DNA of 33,253 bases, from positions 1 to 33,253 of the IMG/VR virus record IMGVR_UViG_3300011253_000930, one strand, 5' to 3'. Below the pieces are notes generated by a model that worked only from the letters and a program-made list of their open reading frames with translations, ran no database searches and was not told the DNA's origin. Made by a program: the position numbers and the translations under genes. Of this stretch, positions 2,392-33,253 are shown piece by piece; position 1 is the first letter of the stretch; every line of letters starts with the position of its first letter. This DNA is from a virus.

Positions 2392-3005
2392 CGTACAACA
2401 GAGGCAAGCCGCTGCGCCGTGAAAAGACGCAAAAACCCGATGGCATTCTCAACCCAGATGCCACGGCGGCGGAAAGCGCCTGCCACTTCGCTTGCGCCCC
2501 TTTCGACAAGGCAACGAACGACGCAAACCGCAAGTGGGGCATCGACAGATTGCCGGGGCTGGTCAGCACAGAGACAGCGCGAAAGTATGGGCATTGCGTT
2601 GGCAAACTGAGCGAAGCCATCCAAGCCCGTGATGCGCCCCTAGTCGAGCAATGGGCGGGCGTCTGCATTCGCGGCATAGCCAAGCTGGAACAGGAAGCTG
2701 TTGAAGCAGGCCACAAGCCAGCCAGCGGGCTTTTCATCGAAGGCTATGCCGAAAAGACCGACGACCGCCCCGCGCTGCGTTTTGGCATCCTGATCGACGG
2801 GAACCAATGGCAAGCCGCCAAAGCGGCACGGCCCGACCTGACCTTTTTCAACATTCACGAGGCAGGGCTTGCCTTGCAGATGAAATTGGCAACGCCGCTG
2901 GTCTTGGAAGCCAAAAAGCATTTCCCCGGCGCAAACGTCACCCGCATCAAACCCGCTAACCCCGTAAATTGGGCCGCTGGGGGCGATGAAATCCCCCCGC
3001 TATAG
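2388..3005 (+). CDS. conserved early protein of unknown function, 205 aa
   Basis: I do not recognise this family. The start at 2388 is chosen because its ATG overlaps the upstream stop (ATGA) and a G-rich run precedes it; a GTG at 2349 would extend the protein by 13 residues. The sequence is soluble and mixed-charge with no membrane segment. It has a basic N-terminus (RGKPLRREKTQK), scattered cysteines in CHFACAPF, and an alpha/beta-like C-terminal half. It lies in the replication-proximal early operon between the helicase and several very small genes, so a role in replication, recombination or host takeover is possible but not shown. Confidence 0.75.
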   Translation: MTYNRGKPLRREKTQKPDGILNPDATAAESACHFACAPFDKATNDANRKWGIDRLPGLVSTETARKYGHCVGKLSEAIQARDAPLVEQWAGVCIRGIAKLEQEAVEAGHKPASGLFIEGYAEKTDDRPALRFGILIDGNQWQAAKAARPDLTFFNIHEAGLALQMKLATPLVLEAKKHFPGANVTRIKPANPVNWAAGGDEIPPL

Positions 3006-3017
3006 GAGACCCGCCAA

Positions 3018-21182: not shown

Positions 21183-21650
21183 ATGGCGGTCTTTGCATTC
21201 TACACGGCCAAGGGCGACTTTGTGGACCGGGCAATCCGGCTTTTCACATGGTCGCGGTTTAGCCATGTGGAACTGGTCACTGACGGGCCGCTGCGGGCGT
21301 CCAACGCCGTTATCAGCGCATCCAAGCGCGACGGCGGGGTGCGCGAAAAGGTCATCGCGTGGAACCCGGCGCATTGGGTCTTTGTTGAACTACCTGACAG
21401 CGCGACCGTTCCGCCCGGCCCGTACATCATGACCAAATACTATGCGGGGCGGGCCTATGACACATGGGGGGCTGTTGCCACCGTGTTTCGGTTTGCCCGG
21501 CCCCACGCAAGCAAGTGGTTTTGCAGCGAGTTGATGGCGCACAGCCTGAACTTTGAAGATGCCGAAAGATACACGCCCGGCGCATTTTATGTGGCCCTTA
21601 TGGGGATGGGCGGCGAGACAGTAAGACCAGAAGCGCATAAGCGCATTTAG
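21183..21650 (+). CDS. permuted papain-fold (NlpC/P60-like) amidase
   Basis: The 155-aa protein shows the circularly permuted order of YaeF/YiiX-type NlpC/P60 proteins. The His-containing strand comes first (TWSRFSHVELV, H28) and the Cys helix later (KWFCSELMAHSL, C114). In between is a Tyr/Gly segment (YYAGRAYDTWGAVA). Such enzymes hydrolyse amide or ester bonds in peptidoglycan or lipids. It stands at the head of the lysis block and could act in wall degradation or lipoprotein modification. It has no signal peptide. The substrate is not determined. Confidence 0.75.
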   Translation: MAVFAFYTAKGDFVDRAIRLFTWSRFSHVELVTDGPLRASNAVISASKRDGGVREKVIAWNPAHWVFVELPDSATVPPGPYIMTKYYAGRAYDTWGAVATVFRFARPHASKWFCSELMAHSLNFEDAERYTPGAFYVALMGMGGETVRPEAHKRI

Positions 21651-21703
21651 CAGGCTGAAAGCAGTAAGCCGACGACCAACGCACGGATATAGGCGGAAAA
21701 TGA

Positions 21704-21949
21704 ATGACGGACAAATGGACGGAAACCGAATTATCGGCGTTACGTCGGATGATCGAAAAAGCGGAACAAGACCCCGACTTTTCCCCGGCGGACATAAAAG
21801 CGCTGCGGACGATGGTGGAAGCGTTCAAAGGCTTTCAGTTTTTCGGGCGGTTCGCAAAGTGGGCAATTTTTCTCTTGGCGGCGTTCGCGGGGGCCATCAC
21901 GGCTTGGGAGCAAGTGGCGGAAAAGGTGCGGCAATGGCTAGCGTTGTGA
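21704..21949 (+). CDS. small membrane protein of the lysis block, 81 aa
   Basis: The product has a charged N-terminal helix (TETELSALRRMIEKAEQ), then one hydrophobic helix at about residues 48-66 (RFAKWAIFLLAAFAGAITAW) and a short amphipathic tail (EKVRQWLAL). The ATG at 21704 is preceded by an alternative ATG at 21700 in another frame. The position and single membrane helix suggest a holin- or antiholin-like role. The end overlaps the next gene by 16 bases. Confidence 0.7.
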   Translation: MTDKWTETELSALRRMIEKAEQDPDFSPADIKALRTMVEAFKGFQFFGRFAKWAIFLLAAFAGAITAWEQVAEKVRQWLAL

Positions 21950-22350
21950 TCAGCAAAGTCGAAAGCCGGGCCATGCTTTTTGCGTCATTTTGCGTTCTGG
22001 CCTTCGCGTATTGGATCAACCTGCCGCCGACGGCGTACAGCGATGTTGAGGTTTTGCGCGTGGAGCGCGAGGGCAACACGGTCGAGGTTGTGGCGAATTT
22101 CACCAAAGGCGACTGCGAATTTAAGCGGCTTGAGGTTGTCGGCAGCGTGATCGGGGAAACCCGCTTTCTGCGCTGGCGTGATCTGGACGGCCCACCGCTG
22201 AATGAGGACCGATCCGCAGGCCATCAGACATTGCGCATTTCGTTTGATGCACCGCCTGCCATTTACGATTGGGTCGAAATCAGAACGCAGCACTTCTGCG
22301 ACGACAAGAAAGTGGACAAGGTTTTTCATCGCCTTGAACCGTTAATCTAA
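21934..22350 (+). CDS. membrane-anchored protein of unknown function, 138 aa
   Basis: The ATG at 21934 is preferred because an in-frame start at 21700 would overlap the previous gene entirely. An N-terminal membrane anchor (residues about 11-29, ESRAMLFASFCVLAFAYWI) is followed by a presumably periplasmic beta-rich domain. That domain starts VLRVEREGNTVEVVANF and contains two cysteines (GDCEFKRLE and TQHFCDDKK). No family is recognised. Placement in the lysis block suggests action at the envelope. Confidence 0.65.
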   Translation: MASVVISKVESRAMLFASFCVLAFAYWINLPPTAYSDVEVLRVEREGNTVEVVANFTKGDCEFKRLEVVGSVIGETRFLRWRDLDGPPLNEDRSAGHQTLRISFDAPPAIYDWVEIRTQHFCDDKKVDKVFHRLEPLI

Positions 22351-22359
22351 GGACACACC

Positions 22360-23016
22360 ATGAAAATCACCCCCCGCATTGCGCTAGAAGTGGCGCATCA
22401 TGAAGCCGTCATTCGCTCAACTTATGTGGACAGCGTGGGCGTGAATACGTGGAGCGTCGGCCTGACCAGCGCCACGGGCCACAATGTTGACCGATACATC
22501 AACAACCCGCAAACGATGCAGCATTGCATGGAGATATTTCTTTGGGCGCTGGAACGCTACGCAGACGATGTGCGCGAGGCTTTCAAAGGCTATCTGCTGT
22601 CCGAGGCGCAGTTTACCGCCGCGCTGAGTTTCCACTGGAACACGGGCGCGATCAAGCGGGCATCGTGGGTCAAGCGCTTCAAAGCGGGTGACGTGGCGGG
22701 GGCGCGGGCGGCATTCATGCTTTACAACAAGCCCAAGGAAATCATCCGCAGGCGCGGCGAGGAAAGAGACCTGTTTTTTGATGGCGTCTGGGCGGGTGAC
22801 GGCAAAATCACAGAATACACCAAACTGTCATCCAGACGGTCGCCCGTGTGGAGCAGCGCAATCCGGCGCGACATTCGCGGCGTGATCGAAGCGGTGTTGG
22901 CCGATGCCGATGCGCCAAAGCCCCCGGCGATTGATTACGAAAAGATAAACCCCACGCCCGCAAAAAAGCCGTGGTGGCTGGCATTGCTGGCTCTGTTTGG
23001 AAAGGCCACAAAATGA
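22360..23016 (+). CDS. endolysin, GH24 phage lysozyme
   Basis: The 218-aa protein carries the T4-lysozyme-type catalytic triad with correct spacing: E15 (VAHHEAVIRS), D24 (YVDSVG) and T30 (NTWSVGLTSATG). GH24 enzymes cut the glycan backbone of peptidoglycan. The C-terminus has a Pro-rich stretch and a short hydrophobic segment (KKPWWLALLALFGKATK), which is unusual and could associate the enzyme with the inner membrane. No N-terminal SAR signal is seen, so export would need the holin. It overlaps the holin gene (ATGA). Confidence 0.85.
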   Translation: MKITPRIALEVAHHEAVIRSTYVDSVGVNTWSVGLTSATGHNVDRYINNPQTMQHCMEIFLWALERYADDVREAFKGYLLSEAQFTAALSFHWNTGAIKRASWVKRFKAGDVAGARAAFMLYNKPKEIIRRRGEERDLFFDGVWAGDGKITEYTKLSSRRSPVWSSAIRRDIRGVIEAVLADADAPKPPAIDYEKINPTPAKKPWWLALLALFGKATK

Positions 23017-23213
23017 AGTTGGTTGACGGATGGCAGAACGCATGGCGCTGGTTTTCGGTTTGGTGCCTGACCCTATCAGGGGCCGCGCCTGCGGCATGGC
23101 TTGCGGTGCCGGATGAAATGCGCAGACAGGTGCCTGCCGAGTGGCTGGCATTTGCGGCTGTTGCGATTGCGATTGCGGGCGTCTTTGGTCGCCTTGTGGA
23201 TCAAGAGCAATGA
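23013..23213 (+). CDS. holin-like protein (DUF7940-type), 66 aa
   Basis: The pattern KLVDGWQNAWRWFSVWCLTL, a hydrophobic helix (residues about 14-33), a polar loop (VPDEMRRQVPAEW) and a second hydrophobic helix (about 44-60, LAFAAVAIAIAGVFGRL) matches the two-helix holins encoded next to phage lysozymes. It should oligomerise in the inner membrane and release the endolysin. The start at 23013 overlaps the lysozyme stop, and the end overlaps the Rz gene. Confidence 0.8.
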   Translation: MKLVDGWQNAWRWFSVWCLTLSGAAPAAWLAVPDEMRRQVPAEWLAFAAVAIAIAGVFGRLVDQEQ

Positions 23214-23521
23214 TTGCCCGTTACGCGCTTTATGCGGCCCTGTCAGTGGCTCTTGCCCTTGGCGGCTGGTCAATGTGGCTCATGCGGGCCAATGCGTCCC
23301 TGACGGTCAAAAACGCCAGCCTTGAGCGGTCCGTTGCGGCATTCCAAGCGCAGGCGGAACAGTCAGCCCTTGCGCGTGAAGTCGAAAAAGCACGGGCGGC
23401 ACGGTTTGCACAAGAAAGTGCGGATATGGCGGCTAAAATTGAAACCCTTTTAACCGGAGGTATTCCCGATGCGGCTCTTGATCCTGCCATCATTGATCTT
23501 CTTAACGGCTTGCGCGACTGA
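23210..23521 (+). CDS. i-spanin (Rz-like), 103 aa
   Basis: The start at 23210 gives an N-terminal membrane anchor (residues about 3-24, YALYAALSVALALGGWSMWL). A periplasmic coiled coil follows (NASLERSVAAFQAQAEQSAL and further), which is the architecture of inner-membrane spanins. Together with the outer-membrane lipoprotein encoded in the overlapping frame, it would fuse the two membranes at the end of lysis. It overlaps the holin stop by four bases. Confidence 0.8.
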   Translation: MIARYALYAALSVALALGGWSMWLMRANASLTVKNASLERSVAAFQAQAEQSALAREVEKARAARFAQESADMAAKIETLLTGGIPDAALDPAIIDLLNGLRD

Positions 23522-23690
23522 AACGACATTCATCAAGCCGGACATTCCAAGCGAAACCTTGACCCCATGCCCGATCAGCGCCCGCCAGGTGCAGACGGTC
23601 AATGAGTTGGCAGCGCTGGCAACCGAGCATCTACGCAGCGCGACCTGCGCAAACGGCAAGATTGAGGCGATTGCAGAGGTATTGGGCTGA
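23469..23690 (+). CDS. o-spanin lipoprotein (Rz1-like), 73 aa
   Basis: The gene begins inside the Rz frame (+1, overlap 53 bases) and extends beyond it. It has a signal sequence with lipobox LTAC, putting the lipidated cysteine at residue 15 (FLTACATET), followed by a Pro-containing linker (PDIPSETLTPCPIS) and a helical tail. This nested Rz/Rz1 arrangement is characteristic of spanin pairs. Its stop overlaps the next start (TGATG). Confidence 0.8.
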   Translation: MRLLILPSLIFLTACATETTFIKPDIPSETLTPCPISARQVQTVNELAALATEHLRSATCANGKIEAIAEVLG

Positions 23691-23896
23691 TGTGGCTCAT
23701 GGTCATCAGCATTTGCCTGCAACTCGATGCCACGGGCGCAGATTGCCGCCGTGGGGCGCAAGGTCCATACCTGACGCCCATGGAGTGCCGAACGCGCATG
23801 GAGGGCCAGCATGACGCCATTATGGCGCTTGCAGGTGAACTAGGCGCAAAGGTGCTTTTCCTGAAAGTGTCCTGCCAAAAAGGCAAAAACGGATAA
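23690..23896 (+). CDS. small cysteine-containing protein at the end of the lysis block, 68 aa
   Basis: The product begins MWLMVISICLQLDATGADC, a short hydrophobic segment that could be a weak signal, and has four cysteines in total. The central helix (QHDAIMALAGELGAKVLFLK) is followed by a basic tail. The gene is coupled to the Rz1 stop and the late terminator begins at its stop codon. The role is unknown; it may be a late envelope or lysis accessory protein. Confidence 0.6.
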   Translation: MWLMVISICLQLDATGADCRRGAQGPYLTPMECRTRMEGQHDAIMALAGELGAKVLFLKVSCQKGKNG

Positions 23897-23930
23897 ACCC
23901 CGCGTTCCTGAAAAGGGCGCGGGGTTTTTT
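23895..23930 (+). terminator. intrinsic terminator ending the late operon
   Basis: AAACCCCGCG (23895-23904) pairs with CGCGGGGTTT (23918-23927), a 10-bp stem with a 13-base loop and a six-T run. It overlaps the stop of the preceding gene and is the strongest terminator in the window. Confidence 0.9.
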
Positions 23931-24183
23931 GTCGTTTCAGCCGATCAGAACAGCCCCGCGATTTTTGCCGCGTTGCCCATTTGGCGCGGGCGCGGCGGCG
24001 GATTGTCTGGGGGTTCCCTTCATATATATTCAAACGCCCTTGCGGGGATGATTGGTTAAAATGATGCGGGGCTGATCTGGTCGGCTGCGGGCGATCACCG
24101 GGGCGGGCTTGTGAACCAAAAAACGCCAAATTCGGGACGCAACGTGTCTTGTGGTTCGTTTATGCGCAACAACTGCGGTCCTT
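23931..24183. other. non-coding interval between the late terminator and a minus-strand gene
   Basis: No credible gene is seen in these 253 bases. The first part is very GC-rich and includes CGCGGGCGCGGCGGCGG. The middle has a TATATATT-like stretch at 24023-24030. Minus-strand frames here are shadows of the neighbouring gene. A minus-strand T-run (24118-24123 read in reverse) lies downstream of the 24184 gene, but I do not see a convincing stem beside it. Confidence 0.5.
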
Positions 24184-24648
24184 TTATGTGCGGTCTGGAT
24201 CGGCTTCCCGATATTCGGGTGATTCTGGTATTGTGTAGGGGAAGGTGACGGGAACACGGCTGTCTTTATTGGTGAAGTATGTCTTGAATTTCTCGCCGGT
24301 TTCTTCGTCTGTGTACCACTCCCAAAACACGATTCCGTCGATATTGTAGGCAATGCCGTCAGCGCCCTTAAACACATTTGATGCGCGCTTGTTCTGCCAA
24401 ACGCCTTCGCCAACCTCCACCCATTCATCGTCTGCGCCAGTAACGGGCGTAAGCGGCTTGTAAGACGCAAGTTTAGCAAACAAATCAACGGCGAATGGCG
24501 CGGAACTCCCGCTGTGACCCTGATCGCAAAACACCTTTAGCAACTCAAGAGTTCCTTCCCGCAACCACTTGTTCGGCCCGTCCTCTGTGTCGCTGGCGTG
24601 GTATCCCGCAAACTCAAGTTCTGTCTCTGCCCAATTCATCATGCTCAT
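24184..24648 (-). CDS. conserved phage protein, 154 aa, divergent from the recombinase
   Basis: The protein starts MSMMNWAETELEFAGY and contains FCDQGHSGSSAPFAVDLFAK, KPLTPVTGADDEWVEVGEG, NKRASNVFKGADGIAYNIDG and a C-terminal block VPVTFPYTIPESPEY. This combination recurs in many unrelated phages, where it is hypothetical; I do not know its function. It is soluble with no membrane segment. An AGGA ribosome-binding site lies 8 bases upstream on the minus strand. It shares the intergenic regulatory region with the serine recombinase operon. Confidence 0.75.
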   Translation of the reverse strand: MSMMNWAETELEFAGYHASDTEDGPNKWLREGTLELLKVFCDQGHSGSSAPFAVDLFAKLASYKPLTPVTGADDEWVEVGEGVWQNKRASNVFKGADGIAYNIDGIVFWEWYTDEETGEKFKTYFTNKDSRVPVTFPYTIPESPEYREADPDRT

Positions 24649-24658
24649 AGTCTGGTCC

Positions 24659-24748
24659 TATCTGCTATCCGTTTCTATAACATATTCTTAGCAGATACGG
24701 AAACAGGGTCAACCAAAAAAGCAGCAGTAGCAGATTTATTTAGCAGCT
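24659..24748. promoter_or_regulatory. operator-like repeats TAGCAGATA between divergent genes
   Basis: The 9-mer TAGCAGATA is at 24689-24697 and its exact reverse complement at 24659-24667 (21-base spacer). TAGCAGAT is at 24728-24735 and TAGCAG at 24741-24746. A related ACGGAAAC/ATCCGTTTC pair lies beside the first two. The copies flank or sit inside the inferred promoters in both directions. They look like binding sites for a shared regulator, or for the serine recombinase itself (a res-like site). Confidence 0.6.
24684..24712 (-). promoter_or_regulatory. putative promoter for the minus-strand 24184-24648 gene
   Basis: Read on the minus strand, TTGACC (24707-24712) is followed by a 17-base spacer and AAGAAT (24684-24689). 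The spacer contains a copy of TAGCAGATA ending at the -10 box, so a bound protein would be expected to block it. Confidence 0.5.
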
Positions 24749-24783
24749 TTACATAAACGCTGCGCGGCGGTATGTAGTTAAAC
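24748..24783 (+). promoter_or_regulatory. strong promoter for the recombinase operon, probably leaderless
   Basis: TTTACA (24748-24753), a 17-base spacer and TATGTA (24771-24776) make a good sigma-70-type promoter. The expected start of transcription is at about 24783, at or one base before the ATG at 24784, and no ribosome-binding site precedes that ATG. The message is therefore probably leaderless. A TAGCAG repeat abuts the -35 box. Confidence 0.65.
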
Positions 24784-25449
24784 ATGAAAACATATGGCTA
24801 TATGCGCGTCTCAACAGACGACCAAGATTTCAAACTGCAAGAAGATGCGCTCAACCGATATCCGGTTGATTTCATATTCTCGGACAAAATGACGGGGGCC
24901 ACGATGGATCGCCCCGGCCTCAAGCGGGCGGTGAAGGTCATGCGGGCTGGCGATAAGCTGGTTGTGTGGCGGCTGGACCGGTTGGGGCGCACCACCATGG
25001 GCGTTCTGGATGCGGTCAAGAGTATGGAGGACGCCGGTATCAAGCTGGTGTCTATGACCGAAAGTATCGACACGTCCACGCCAATGGGAAAGATGTTCCT
25101 GACGATCTGCGCGGCATTCGCTCAGATGGAACGTGACCTGATTTCAGAGCGCACAAAGGCCGGTATCGCGGCGCACAAGGCGCGGGGCGGCACGATGGGT
25201 AAGAAACACTTTGTCAAAGATCACCCGTTGCGCTTGGCGCGGGCGCGGGAATTGGCAGATGTGGTTCTTGCTGGTGGTATCACTGGCGTCGATTTCGTCG
25301 CGGAAATGCACAAGGTTCAACCGGAGCCGCGCATCAAGTCGGTGCAATCATTCTACAATTGGAAGTCTACAAACAAGGGGAAGCGGCCCCCGTTTGAGGG
25401 TTTGATCGCAGATACGCCGCTGGAACAAGTGGAGATAGACGATGAATAG
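24784..25449 (+). CDS. small serine recombinase (resolvase/invertase family)
   Basis: The 221-aa protein has the catalytic serine at S10 (YMRVSTDDQ, with R8), the conserved LDRLGR at 64-69 and the ERDLISERTKAGIAA helix that follows the long E helix. These features define small serine recombinases, which invert, resolve or integrate DNA at short sites. The C-terminal part (about 140-221) is longer and less like the usual GRP-type helix-turn-helix, so its DNA target may be unusual. No obvious invertible segment was found nearby. The stop overlaps the next start by 8 bases. Confidence 0.9.
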   Translation: MKTYGYMRVSTDDQDFKLQEDALNRYPVDFIFSDKMTGATMDRPGLKRAVKVMRAGDKLVVWRLDRLGRTTMGVLDAVKSMEDAGIKLVSMTESIDTSTPMGKMFLTICAAFAQMERDLISERTKAGIAAHKARGGTMGKKHFVKDHPLRLARARELADVVLAGGITGVDFVAEMHKVQPEPRIKSVQSFYNWKSTNKGKRPPFEGLIADTPLEQVEIDDE

Positions 25450-25963: not shown

Positions 25964-26184
25964 AAAACCCGATGCAGCTTGTTGAGGACGCCGACGATTG
26001 TCCTAGACAATTTCAAGAGGCGGGTGCCGCGCGCTACCCAGATATTGATCCGCAAGAATATGCACGAGCCGAAAGATCAGCCGAAATCTACGGCTCCGGC
26101 TATTTGGTTCTTGTTGAAGGTGTGTGGCGCAGTTTTTGCGGTGAGGAGGTTAGGATCATCAAGAAACAGAAGGAGCCGGAATGA
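25960..26184 (+). CDS. small acidic protein, 74 aa
   Basis: A strong GGAGG ribosome-binding site (25948-25952) precedes the start, which overlaps the upstream stop (ATGA). The product is soluble and mixed-charge (MKNPMQLVEDADDCPRQF, SAEIYGSGYLVLVEGVWRSF) and ends with a basic tail (IIKKQKEPE). The function is unknown. It belongs to the recombinase operon. Confidence 0.7.
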   Translation: MKNPMQLVEDADDCPRQFQEAGAARYPDIDPQEYARAERSAEIYGSGYLVLVEGVWRSFCGEEVRIIKKQKEPE

Positions 26185-26399
26185 TGGGCGACAACATTAT
26201 GAAGCCTTGCCCTTTCTGCGGATCATTCGCCATATTTGAGCCACGCGCAGATTGCGCAATTATCAGGTGTTCGCGTCGCAATAATGGATGCCCTGTCAAC
26301 ATGCGAACACCTGATGGATTTGCAACATTTAGAGAGGCGCAAGCGGCATGGAATACCCGCGCCCGCATAAATCCCGCACGGATGCAGGCAAGCCCATGA
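26181..26399 (+). CDS. Lar-like zinc-ribbon protein, 72 aa
   Basis: The pattern MKPCPFCGSFA, a second Cys pair (IIRCSRRNNGCPV) and the terminal AQAAWNTRAR is the signature of the Lar restriction-alleviation family, short zinc-ribbon proteins in which CPFCG and a C-terminal WNxR are conserved. Lar of the Rac prophage modulates host restriction; many phage homologues are of unproven function. The start may be the ATG at 26181 (ribosome-binding site AGGAG upstream) or an in-frame ATG at 26199. It is the last gene of the recombinase operon. Confidence 0.75.
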   Translation: MMGDNIMKPCPFCGSFAIFEPRADCAIIRCSRRNNGCPVNMRTPDGFATFREAQAAWNTRARINPARMQASP

Positions 26400-29766: not shown

Positions 29767-29818
29767 AGAGTATGACTAATTTAGTCACTTTGCAAGGACG
29801 AAATGACGGAATTAGTCA
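29767..29818. promoter_or_regulatory. leftward early promoter with two repressor operators
   Basis: The palindrome TGACTAATTTAGTCA lies at 29773-29787 and a variant TGACGGAATTAGTCA at 29804-29818; centres are 31 bases apart, about three helical turns. On the minus strand, TTGCAA (29790-29795), a 17-base spacer that holds the first palindrome, and TACTCT (29767-29772) form a promoter for the 29740 gene. Matching sites at 30353 make this an OL-like element. Confidence 0.7.
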
Positions 29819-29983: not shown

Positions 29984-30313
29984 CTATTCAGGGTCAACCG
30001 CCCTGATCTTTTCGGAGAGAGCAACCGGAAGGTTGGAAGCGTCTCCCAGGATGAGGTAGTCAAGGGTCACGCCGAACCGGATAGTCAGCAGGGCTGCAAC
30101 GGAGTCTGACAACCCCTGCCTGCCCTTCTCGAACCTGGACCAATAGGTTCTTTCTATCCCAAGGTAGTCCGAAATCTCAGATGGTGTCAGGCCAAGCGCC
30201 ACCCGCAGAAGCCGCAGGCGTTCACCGACAGCCCTGTTCGACATTCTCTGCGCCACTTCCTGCGGCAGCAATGATTCGCTTTTGATAGACATTGGCAGAA
30301 CGTGCATTGTCAT
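29984..30313 (-). CDS. XRE-family lysogeny repressor (CI-like), 109 aa
   Basis: The HTH lies at about residues 29-85 (ERLRLLRVALGLTPSEISDY, LGIERTYWSRFEKG). It is preceded by a Met-rich arm with possible starts at 30313, 30307 or 30292, and ends with about 20 extra residues. It lacks the S24/LexA-type self-cleavage domain, so induction cannot be by RecA-stimulated cleavage. It lies between the two operator-bearing promoters, as cI does in lambda. Autoregulation through the 30353 site is likely since that site lies just upstream of its start. Confidence 0.8.
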   Translation of the reverse strand: MTMHVLPMSIKSESLLPQEVAQRMSNRAVGERLRLLRVALGLTPSEISDYLGIERTYWSRFEKGRQGLSDSVAALLTIRFGVTLDYLILGDASNLPVALSEKIRAVDPE

Positions 30314-30343: not shown

Positions 30344-30373
30344 TTGACACTATGACTAAAATAGTCATTTATA
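30344..30373 (+). promoter_or_regulatory. rightward early promoter with repressor operator
   Basis: TTGACA (30344-30349), an 18-base spacer and TTTATA (30368-30373) form the promoter for the Cro-like gene. The palindrome TGACTAAAATAGTCA (30353-30367) fills the spacer. The predicted transcription start is at about 30380, at the ATG (30379), so the message is probably leaderless. A half-site TAGTC lies at 30337-30341. Confidence 0.7.
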
Positions 30374-30378
30374 GGGCT

Positions 30379-30618
30379 ATGAAAAACACCATTCAAGATA
30401 TTTTGGCCCAGACGGGGGCGCGGGACGAAATCGCAAATGAGTGCAATGTTGCGCCGATTGCGGTCTATCGGTGGGCGCAAAATGCGTCCATCCCGTCCCG
30501 ACACTTCGCGGGAATTTTGCGTGTTGCTAAACGAAATGGCGCTGCTGTTACCGCAGAAGTGCTTTGTGCTGCACATGATAAAACTCCATCGGCTGACCCT
30601 ACTGTGAGGGCTATATGA
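30379..30618 (+). CDS. Cro-like transcription regulator, 79 aa
   Basis: The start at 30379 (MKNTIQDILAQTGARDEIAN) is preferred to the ATG at 30352, which lies inside the operator and upstream of the -10 box. The HTH is ARDEIANECNVAPIAVYRWA with the following QNASIPSRHFAGIL, of the YdaS/Cro-like type. It is the first gene of the rightward early operon, divergent from the repressor, so it is the expected lytic-side regulator. It overlaps the next frame by ATGA. Confidence 0.8.
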   Translation: MKNTIQDILAQTGARDEIANECNVAPIAVYRWAQNASIPSRHFAGILRVAKRNGAAVTAEVLCAAHDKTPSADPTVRAI

Positions 30619-32723: not shown

Positions 32724-33253
32724 TGACAGTGCAAGCCACAAGCCCGCAAATGGTGACGGGCAATGGACAGAGCGACACCCACGCCCTGACCATTTCAACA
32801 CGCAACGGCGATGCGCCAAACCCCAGCGCCAAGGCCGGGCAGGATTACGGCACCGTCACGGCCAAGATGATTGCAGCGCAGGCGGCAAACCCCGACAGCT
32901 TGCCCAAGATGCAAGCGCCGTGGTTCATCGGATCCGACTATAACGGGCCGGACGCCCGCAGCCACGAAGCGCAGCGCATCAACGGACAGTTTCACGTTCT
33001 GCCCGTCGATATAGACAAGGGCAATCATACCCTTGAGGAAGTCACGCGCATCACCGAAACCATCGTCGGTGCTGGAACGTCATTCATCGTTTACAGCAGC
33101 AGCAGCGCGACAGCCGACAATCAGAAATGGCGGGTGCTGTTTTTCACATCGCCAGCCATTCCCGGCGTGGAATACAAAGAGACCCAAAGCGCCATCTTTG
33201 ATTTGTACCAGATGGACGGCATTGTGTGCGACCGTGCGTTAGAGCGCACAGGC
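32723..33253 (+). CDS. primase-polymerase/helicase, N-terminal part (continues at base 3)
   Basis: This is the start of the 830-aa replication protein; ATG 32723 overlaps the upstream stop. An unstructured N-terminus leads into the archaeo-eukaryotic primase core. Motif I is VDIDKGNHTLEE at about residues 95-106, with the two catalytic acidic residues. Motif II is FIVYSSSSATADNQKWRVLF, where the usual sxH histidine is not seen. Motif III with an Asp lies in DRALERTGQLIFLPN just past the contig end. Such domains make primers and can polymerise DNA. The last 140 bases duplicate bases 1-140. Confidence 0.9.
   Translation, partial: MTVQATSPQMVTGNGQSDTHALTISTRNGDAPNPSAKAGQDYGTVTAKMIAAQAANPDSLPKMQAPWFIGSDYNGPDARSHEAQRINGQFHVLPVDIDKGNHTLEEVTRITETIVGAGTSFIVYSSSSATADNQKWRVLFFTSPAIPGVEYKETQSAIFDLYQMDGIVCDRALERTG
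33114..33253. repeat. terminal redundancy, copy at the right end
   Basis: Identical to bases 1-140. One copy should be removed to obtain the circular unit of 33,113 bp. Confidence 0.95.

Follow-up and report, generated by a model that had tools for sequence, protein, structure and literature searches.

The locus and its genes

The window examined in this study, meaning the whole stretch of 33,253 nucleotides that was analysed (IMG/VR virus record IMGVR_UViG_3300011253_000930), has termini that are identical over ~140 bp (positions 1-140 and 33114-33253), which indicates that it represents a complete phage genome read past its own start. Profile searches of the window proteins identified an SU10-type portal and capsid, a terminase, a primase-polymerase relative, a tyrosine integrase and a repressor/Cro-like switch. 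The stretch from the lysis genes to the integrase contains a small serine recombinase gene, which is transcribed divergently from tad3, with 135 bp separating the two start codons (Table 1). Elsewhere in the genome, palindromes of the type TGACTAAWTTAGTCA (29773-29818 and 30353-30367) adjoin a repressor gene (29984-30313, minus strand) and a Cro-like gene starting at 30379; this region is likely the lysogeny switch, and the Cro-like gene, too, seems to have a leaderless start (TTTATAGGGCTATG). A Lar-like restriction alleviation protein (26181-26399) scored 28.2 bits, just below the Pfam cut-off of 28.6.

Judged by its resolvase N-terminal catalytic domain and the core residues in it, the recombinase is a member of the small serine recombinases. 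The protein matches PF00239 (3.1e-43) and phrog_125, annotated as 'DNA invertase' (1.7e-59), and S10 and the core residues of DRxGR and ERxxIxxRT are invariant in seven relatives. Its catalytic domain is nearest to that of Gin (3.7e-37), followed by gamma-delta resolvase (4.9e-24), while the similarity to Sin is weak (E 5e-12). The C-terminal domain lies outside the Pfam and PDB matches and does not align with Gin.

The product of the divergent gene scores 126.8 bits against Pfam PF25185 (curated cut-off 27) and is predicted to be a type I Thoeris inhibitor. It is 92% identical to a Tad3 homologue in another phage (contig L006), where the gene lies inside an operon and AGGACC also precedes tad3 and its neighbour genes. 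At the DNA level, the tad3 segment (24176-24661) is 87% identical to L006 3988-4472, and the similarity stops sharply at each end, near AGGACC Shine-Dalgarno sequences, a pattern resembling gene exchange at these short shared motifs.

Table 1. Observed and predicted features of the divergent intergenic region and its flanking genes (positions in the window).
Feature	Position	Strand	Basis
Tad3 homologue, divergent accessory gene, 154 aa	24184-24648	-	Pfam PF25185
tad3 Shine-Dalgarno AGGACC, 5 nt from ATG	24654-24659	-	Sequence
Left arm TATCTGCTA (TAGCAGATA on the minus strand)	24659-24667	-	Exact match
Candidate divergent -10 region TATGTTAT	24677-24689	-	TATGT/TGTAAT-like words aligned in relatives
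Conserved control region shared with the recombinase gene	24678-24783		Alignment of relatives
Right arm TAGCAGATA	24689-24697	+	Exact match
Conserved element TAGCAKATAYGG, holds the right arm	24689-24700	+	Kept in window, L003, L004, L005
Alternative divergent promoter: TTGACC, 17-bp spacer, AAGAAT	24712-24707 (TTGACC)	-	Scan score 9/12
Third copy TAGCAGATT	24728-24736	+	8/9 match
TAGCAGATTTATTTAGCAGCTT, third and fourth copies, A+T-rich, just 5' of -35	24728-24749	+	Window and relatives
Fourth copy TAGCAGCTT	24741-24749	+	7/9 match
Recombinase promoter -35 TTTACA	24748-24753	+	Invariant in window and three close relatives
Recombinase promoter -10 TATGTA, 17 bp from -35	24771-24776	+	TATGT invariant in six loci
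Small serine recombinase, 221 aa	24784-25449	+	PF00239

Conservation of the control region and exchange of its neighbours

Scans of viral contigs and GTDB genome contigs yielded three distinct close relatives (viral contigs L003, L004 and L005, with recombinases 79-85% identical), in addition to L006, L019 and L102. A fourth close contig, L152, matches L005 exactly throughout their overlap and was not counted separately; the close comparison comprises four sequences in all (the window, L003, L004 and L005). Only recombinases of 44-52% identity were found among 385 alphaproteobacterial genomes, GenBank phages gave no DNA match, and a search for Roseobacter-type genomes by 16S probe identified none among 113 genomes.

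The genes flanking the recombinase and its control region are unrelated between the four phages on both sides, and the divergent position is occupied by tad3, a cytosine methyltransferase gene and two unknown genes, of 79 and 92 aa. Across the same four sequences, positions 24678-24783 are 55-71% identical, compared to 37-56% at the 4-fold degenerate sites of the recombinase. Left of 24678 the four phages could not be aligned and homology is absent, and the DNA similarity of the window to L005 starts at 24689. Since the control region is conserved above the level of 4-fold sites and its flanks are unrelated, it is under selection and is shared with the recombinase. A control region without a recombinase was not found, the combined element pattern matching only contigs that were already known.

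On the lysis side, 21627-24090 is 92.7% identical to the phage of L005 (L159 5096-7561), and this match is followed by unrelated accessory DNA up to the control region, spanning 0.6 kb in the window and ~2 kb in the phage of L005. Read from these alignments, the DNA between the lysis side and the recombinase control region is a variable accessory slot. In L006, and likewise in L102, the gene after the recombinase encodes a cytosine methyltransferase.

Promoters and repeat words

In the window, TATGTA is followed by 7 nt and then by the ATG at 24784, the predicted leaderless start; no Shine-Dalgarno sequence was found 5' of this ATG, where there is little space for one. The arrangement TTTACA-17 bp-TATGT-6/7 nt-ATG is kept in the window and in all three close relatives, while the spacer between -35 and -10 has diverged (6-9 identities of 17). 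Two loci with recombinases of about 41-44% identity (L019 and L102) have TTGCAA-17-TATGT-6/7-ATG, with TTGCAA aligned with the -35. In a set of 116 recombinase starts, all from related genes, TATGTN at this spacing was observed six times compared to 0.65 expected, and these six cases are exactly the window, the three close relatives, L019 and L102. With the E. coli consensus as a yardstick, TATGTA agrees with only three of the six bases of the -10, and L006 (44% identical recombinase) has TGTAAT 8 nt 5' of the ATG and no clear -35. Because the window, three close relatives and two distant relatives have the same promoter geometry, the original prediction of a leaderless recombinase gene lacking a ribosome-binding site is well supported in silico, and the recombinase mRNA is predicted to be leaderless. 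Leaderless mRNAs are known in alphaproteobacteria, with 171 such starts mapped in Sinorhizobium meliloti and others reported in Rhodobacter sphaeroides (PMC3616915); therefore, the recombinase would not be an unusual case. As in those mRNAs (PMC3616915), a -10 element is located 6-7 nt 5' of the AUG without a Shine-Dalgarno sequence; the phage start is predicted by comparison only. A hairpin-forming dyad spanning the promoter (24748-24776, with the spacer between -35 and -10) was also seen in four relatives with differing sequence (sum P 0.0005, post hoc); it was spotted after the fact, and its inner stem varies between relatives.

Promoters in both directions had been proposed to overlap the repeats. 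While the recombinase promoter is conserved, the divergent promoter is plausible and less certain, with two candidate registers, AAGAAT with TTGACC or the minus-strand TATGTT. The left arm falls within what is predicted to be the 5' leader of the divergent transcript, where it abuts the tad3 Shine-Dalgarno sequence, and it lies at a seam, given that the tad3 segment shared with L006 starts at 24661.

The perfect inverted pair was confirmed, with arms of 9 bp and 21 bp between them. The two further copies are also present, in direct orientation and 13 bp apart, but are inexact, and the 17-mer of their element occurs once in the window. A genome-wide search for additional copies found TAGCAGATA exactly only twice, as the pair itself. 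Exact recurrence of a 9-mer is frequent (seen in 114 of 736 tiles, each 135 bp long; shuffle P 0.0625), whereas five copies within two mismatches are rare (shuffle P 0.0025 with similarity, 0.0275 by number alone); the inverted pair alone is unremarkable, and the whole repeat set is unusual. Upstream of the three close relatives, the repeat family did not reach significance (P 0.41, 0.05 and 0.62). The left-arm word TATCTGCTA resembles a putative resolvase half-site consensus; that consensus string was not found in a literature search, and the resemblance is not used as evidence.

Conservation of the repeats upstream of homologous recombinases differs between copies. In the window, L003, L004 and L005, respectively, the right arm reads TAGCAGATACGG, TAGCATATATGG, TGCCAGATACCGG and TAGCATATACGG, and the copy at 24728 reads TAGCAGATTTATTT, TACCAGAATTATTT, TAGCATTATTATAT and TAGCAGAATTATTT. 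Both are largely kept at 79-85% recombinase identity, but the left arm is not: it matches at six of nine positions in L003 at equal spacing and is not recognisable in L004 or L005, so among these phages only the window phage has the perfect inverted pair. The TAGCAGATA word was not found in the relatives of 41-44% identity. Together, the non-conserved inverted pair and the missing word do not support a single fixed operator. Upstream of the L006 recombinase, a different perfect inverted repeat, GTTCATAA-N9-TTATGAAC, was observed at 2984-3008 (minus strand).

Potential control by the recombinase

At the level of sequence, these comparisons identify the intergenic DNA as a conserved region with promoters in both directions that belongs to a subfamily of phage serine recombinases; a predicted leaderless recombinase gene lies on one side and an exchangeable, conventionally led accessory gene on the other. 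The explanation that we favour, with a probability of roughly 0.55, is that the recombinase is the most likely binder of this bidirectional control region, damping both promoters, and that the region is perhaps a res-like site. Its basis is computational and consists of the conservation of the region, the promoter geometry, the exchange of neighbours and the absence of a second site. Rightward transcription from a sigma-70-type promoter would start at, or 1-2 bases from, the recombinase ATG and produce a leaderless mRNA, while a leftward promoter would produce a normally led mRNA for the accessory gene in the slot (tad3 in the window). Words of the type TWRCA, which occur near -105, -94, -55, -42 and -34 from the ATG and recur in relatives in the same orientation, overlap the predicted divergent promoter and are also located just 5' of the recombinase -35; the recombinase would bind these words and dampen both promoters, and an encounter between two copies might let the region serve as a res-like site. 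We infer the start point, recombinase binding, autoregulation and any recombination from the sequence comparisons. The recombinase is the likeliest dedicated binder because it is the sole gene that is always beside the conserved words. In addition, 9-bp inverted repeats are in excess in the 120 bp upstream of 57 non-redundant distant relatives (mean 3.07, compared to 0.52 in shuffles) and are individually significant at 44% of these loci, as would be predicted for enzymes that bind upstream of their own genes.

Known serine recombinase systems provide partial parallels. In Tn3, the res region carries the promoters of the two divergent genes, each of which is repressed by resolvase (PMC7157771). 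The phage region resembles Tn3-family res/TnpR in being an intergenic region with promoters (predicted in the phage) for the recombinase and a divergent neighbour, in its similar length of ~110 bp, and in that accessory genes, which are toxin-antitoxin genes in the Tn3 family, can occupy the neighbour position (PMC7157771, PMC9943657). However, the divergent gene in the window is tad3 rather than the transposase gene tnpA, and no transposase was found among the window proteins searched, which cover part of the window's genes. Tn3 res has three dimer sites, each an inverted pair; in the phages the conserved words are mostly direct, and the inverted elements seen are the promoter-spanning dyad noted post hoc and the perfect pair that only the window has. 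The phage catalytic domain is nearer to Gin than to gamma-delta resolvase. Site II of Sin is a direct repeat, and bound Sin represses an overlapping test promoter in a reporter (PMC2428073). The phage region is similar to Sin/beta-type res in having motifs in direct repeat that overlap a promoter (PMC2428073), but the enzymes are only weakly similar (E 5e-12) and no site I was identified in the phage. The catalytic domain is like that of the Gin/Hin invertases (Gin E 3.7e-37; PMC3798978); in contrast to those systems, neither a second 26-bp site nor an invertible segment was found, and the C-terminal domain is unaligned. By analogy with the logic of Tn3 and Sin, autoregulation by the recombinase via a res-like region is considered probable.

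A possible, clearly less probable explanation is that these are plain back-to-back promoters, in which the words are promoter parts plus chance matches and host RNA polymerase acts alone or with nucleoid proteins. Two of the TWRCA places coincide with promoter elements, namely the recombinase -35 and, on the minus strand, the divergent -10 region, and the conserved blocks in general coincide with promoter elements on either strand. As the words overlap TGCTA/TATGT (minus strand), TTTACA and A+T-rich upstream DNA, their conservation may in part reflect promoter function only. The high chance frequency of an exact 9-bp pair, the non-significant repeat family in relatives and the position of the left arm in a leader beside a Shine-Dalgarno sequence are also consistent with this explanation. 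Against it, the conserved TAGCAKATAYGG is longer than a -10 hexamer, the words hold their positions while the intervening sequence diverges, and inverted repeats are in excess upstream of related recombinases.

It is improbable that the words are instead an operator through which a phage regulator other than the recombinase controls both promoters. The words do overlap both promoters, but TAGCAGATA is found at no other promoter and each relative has different flanking genes. The CI-type operators (TGACTAAWTTAGTCA) are confined to 29773, 29804 and 30353; the words were rejected as a CI operator, this palindrome being a different sequence located elsewhere.

Finally, the original prediction also considered the repeats as recombination sites, and a Gin/Hin-like invertase acting on an invertible segment, flanked by the pair or by the region and a second site, would fit the Gin-like catalytic domain and the 'DNA invertase' annotation of phrog_125; this is highly improbable, since a second site is absent from the 33-kb genome beyond chance: no 12-, 20-, 26- or 34-bp partner of 24650-24790 exceeds shuffles on either strand (the best 26-bp match is 18/26, compared to 18-20 in shuffles), two relatives likewise lack a 26-bp partner in their 14-kb contexts, none of the long inverted-repeat pairs of the genome includes the control region, and the 39-bp pair encloses just 21 bp.

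The locus is a compact system, open to experiment, in which a phage serine recombinase that has no visible partner site may regulate both its own gene and an anti-defence gene. In a broader and rather unlikely version of the favoured explanation, the recombinase and its control region would form a portable slot for swapped counter-defence and accessory genes, with the recombinase regulating the cargo and perhaps helping to exchange it. The interest of the locus lies in this exchangeable accessory slot, which is already occupied by tad3 in one phage and by a cytosine methyltransferase gene in another; the combination of a constant control region and changing cargo makes it a place to look for counter-defence genes in these phages.
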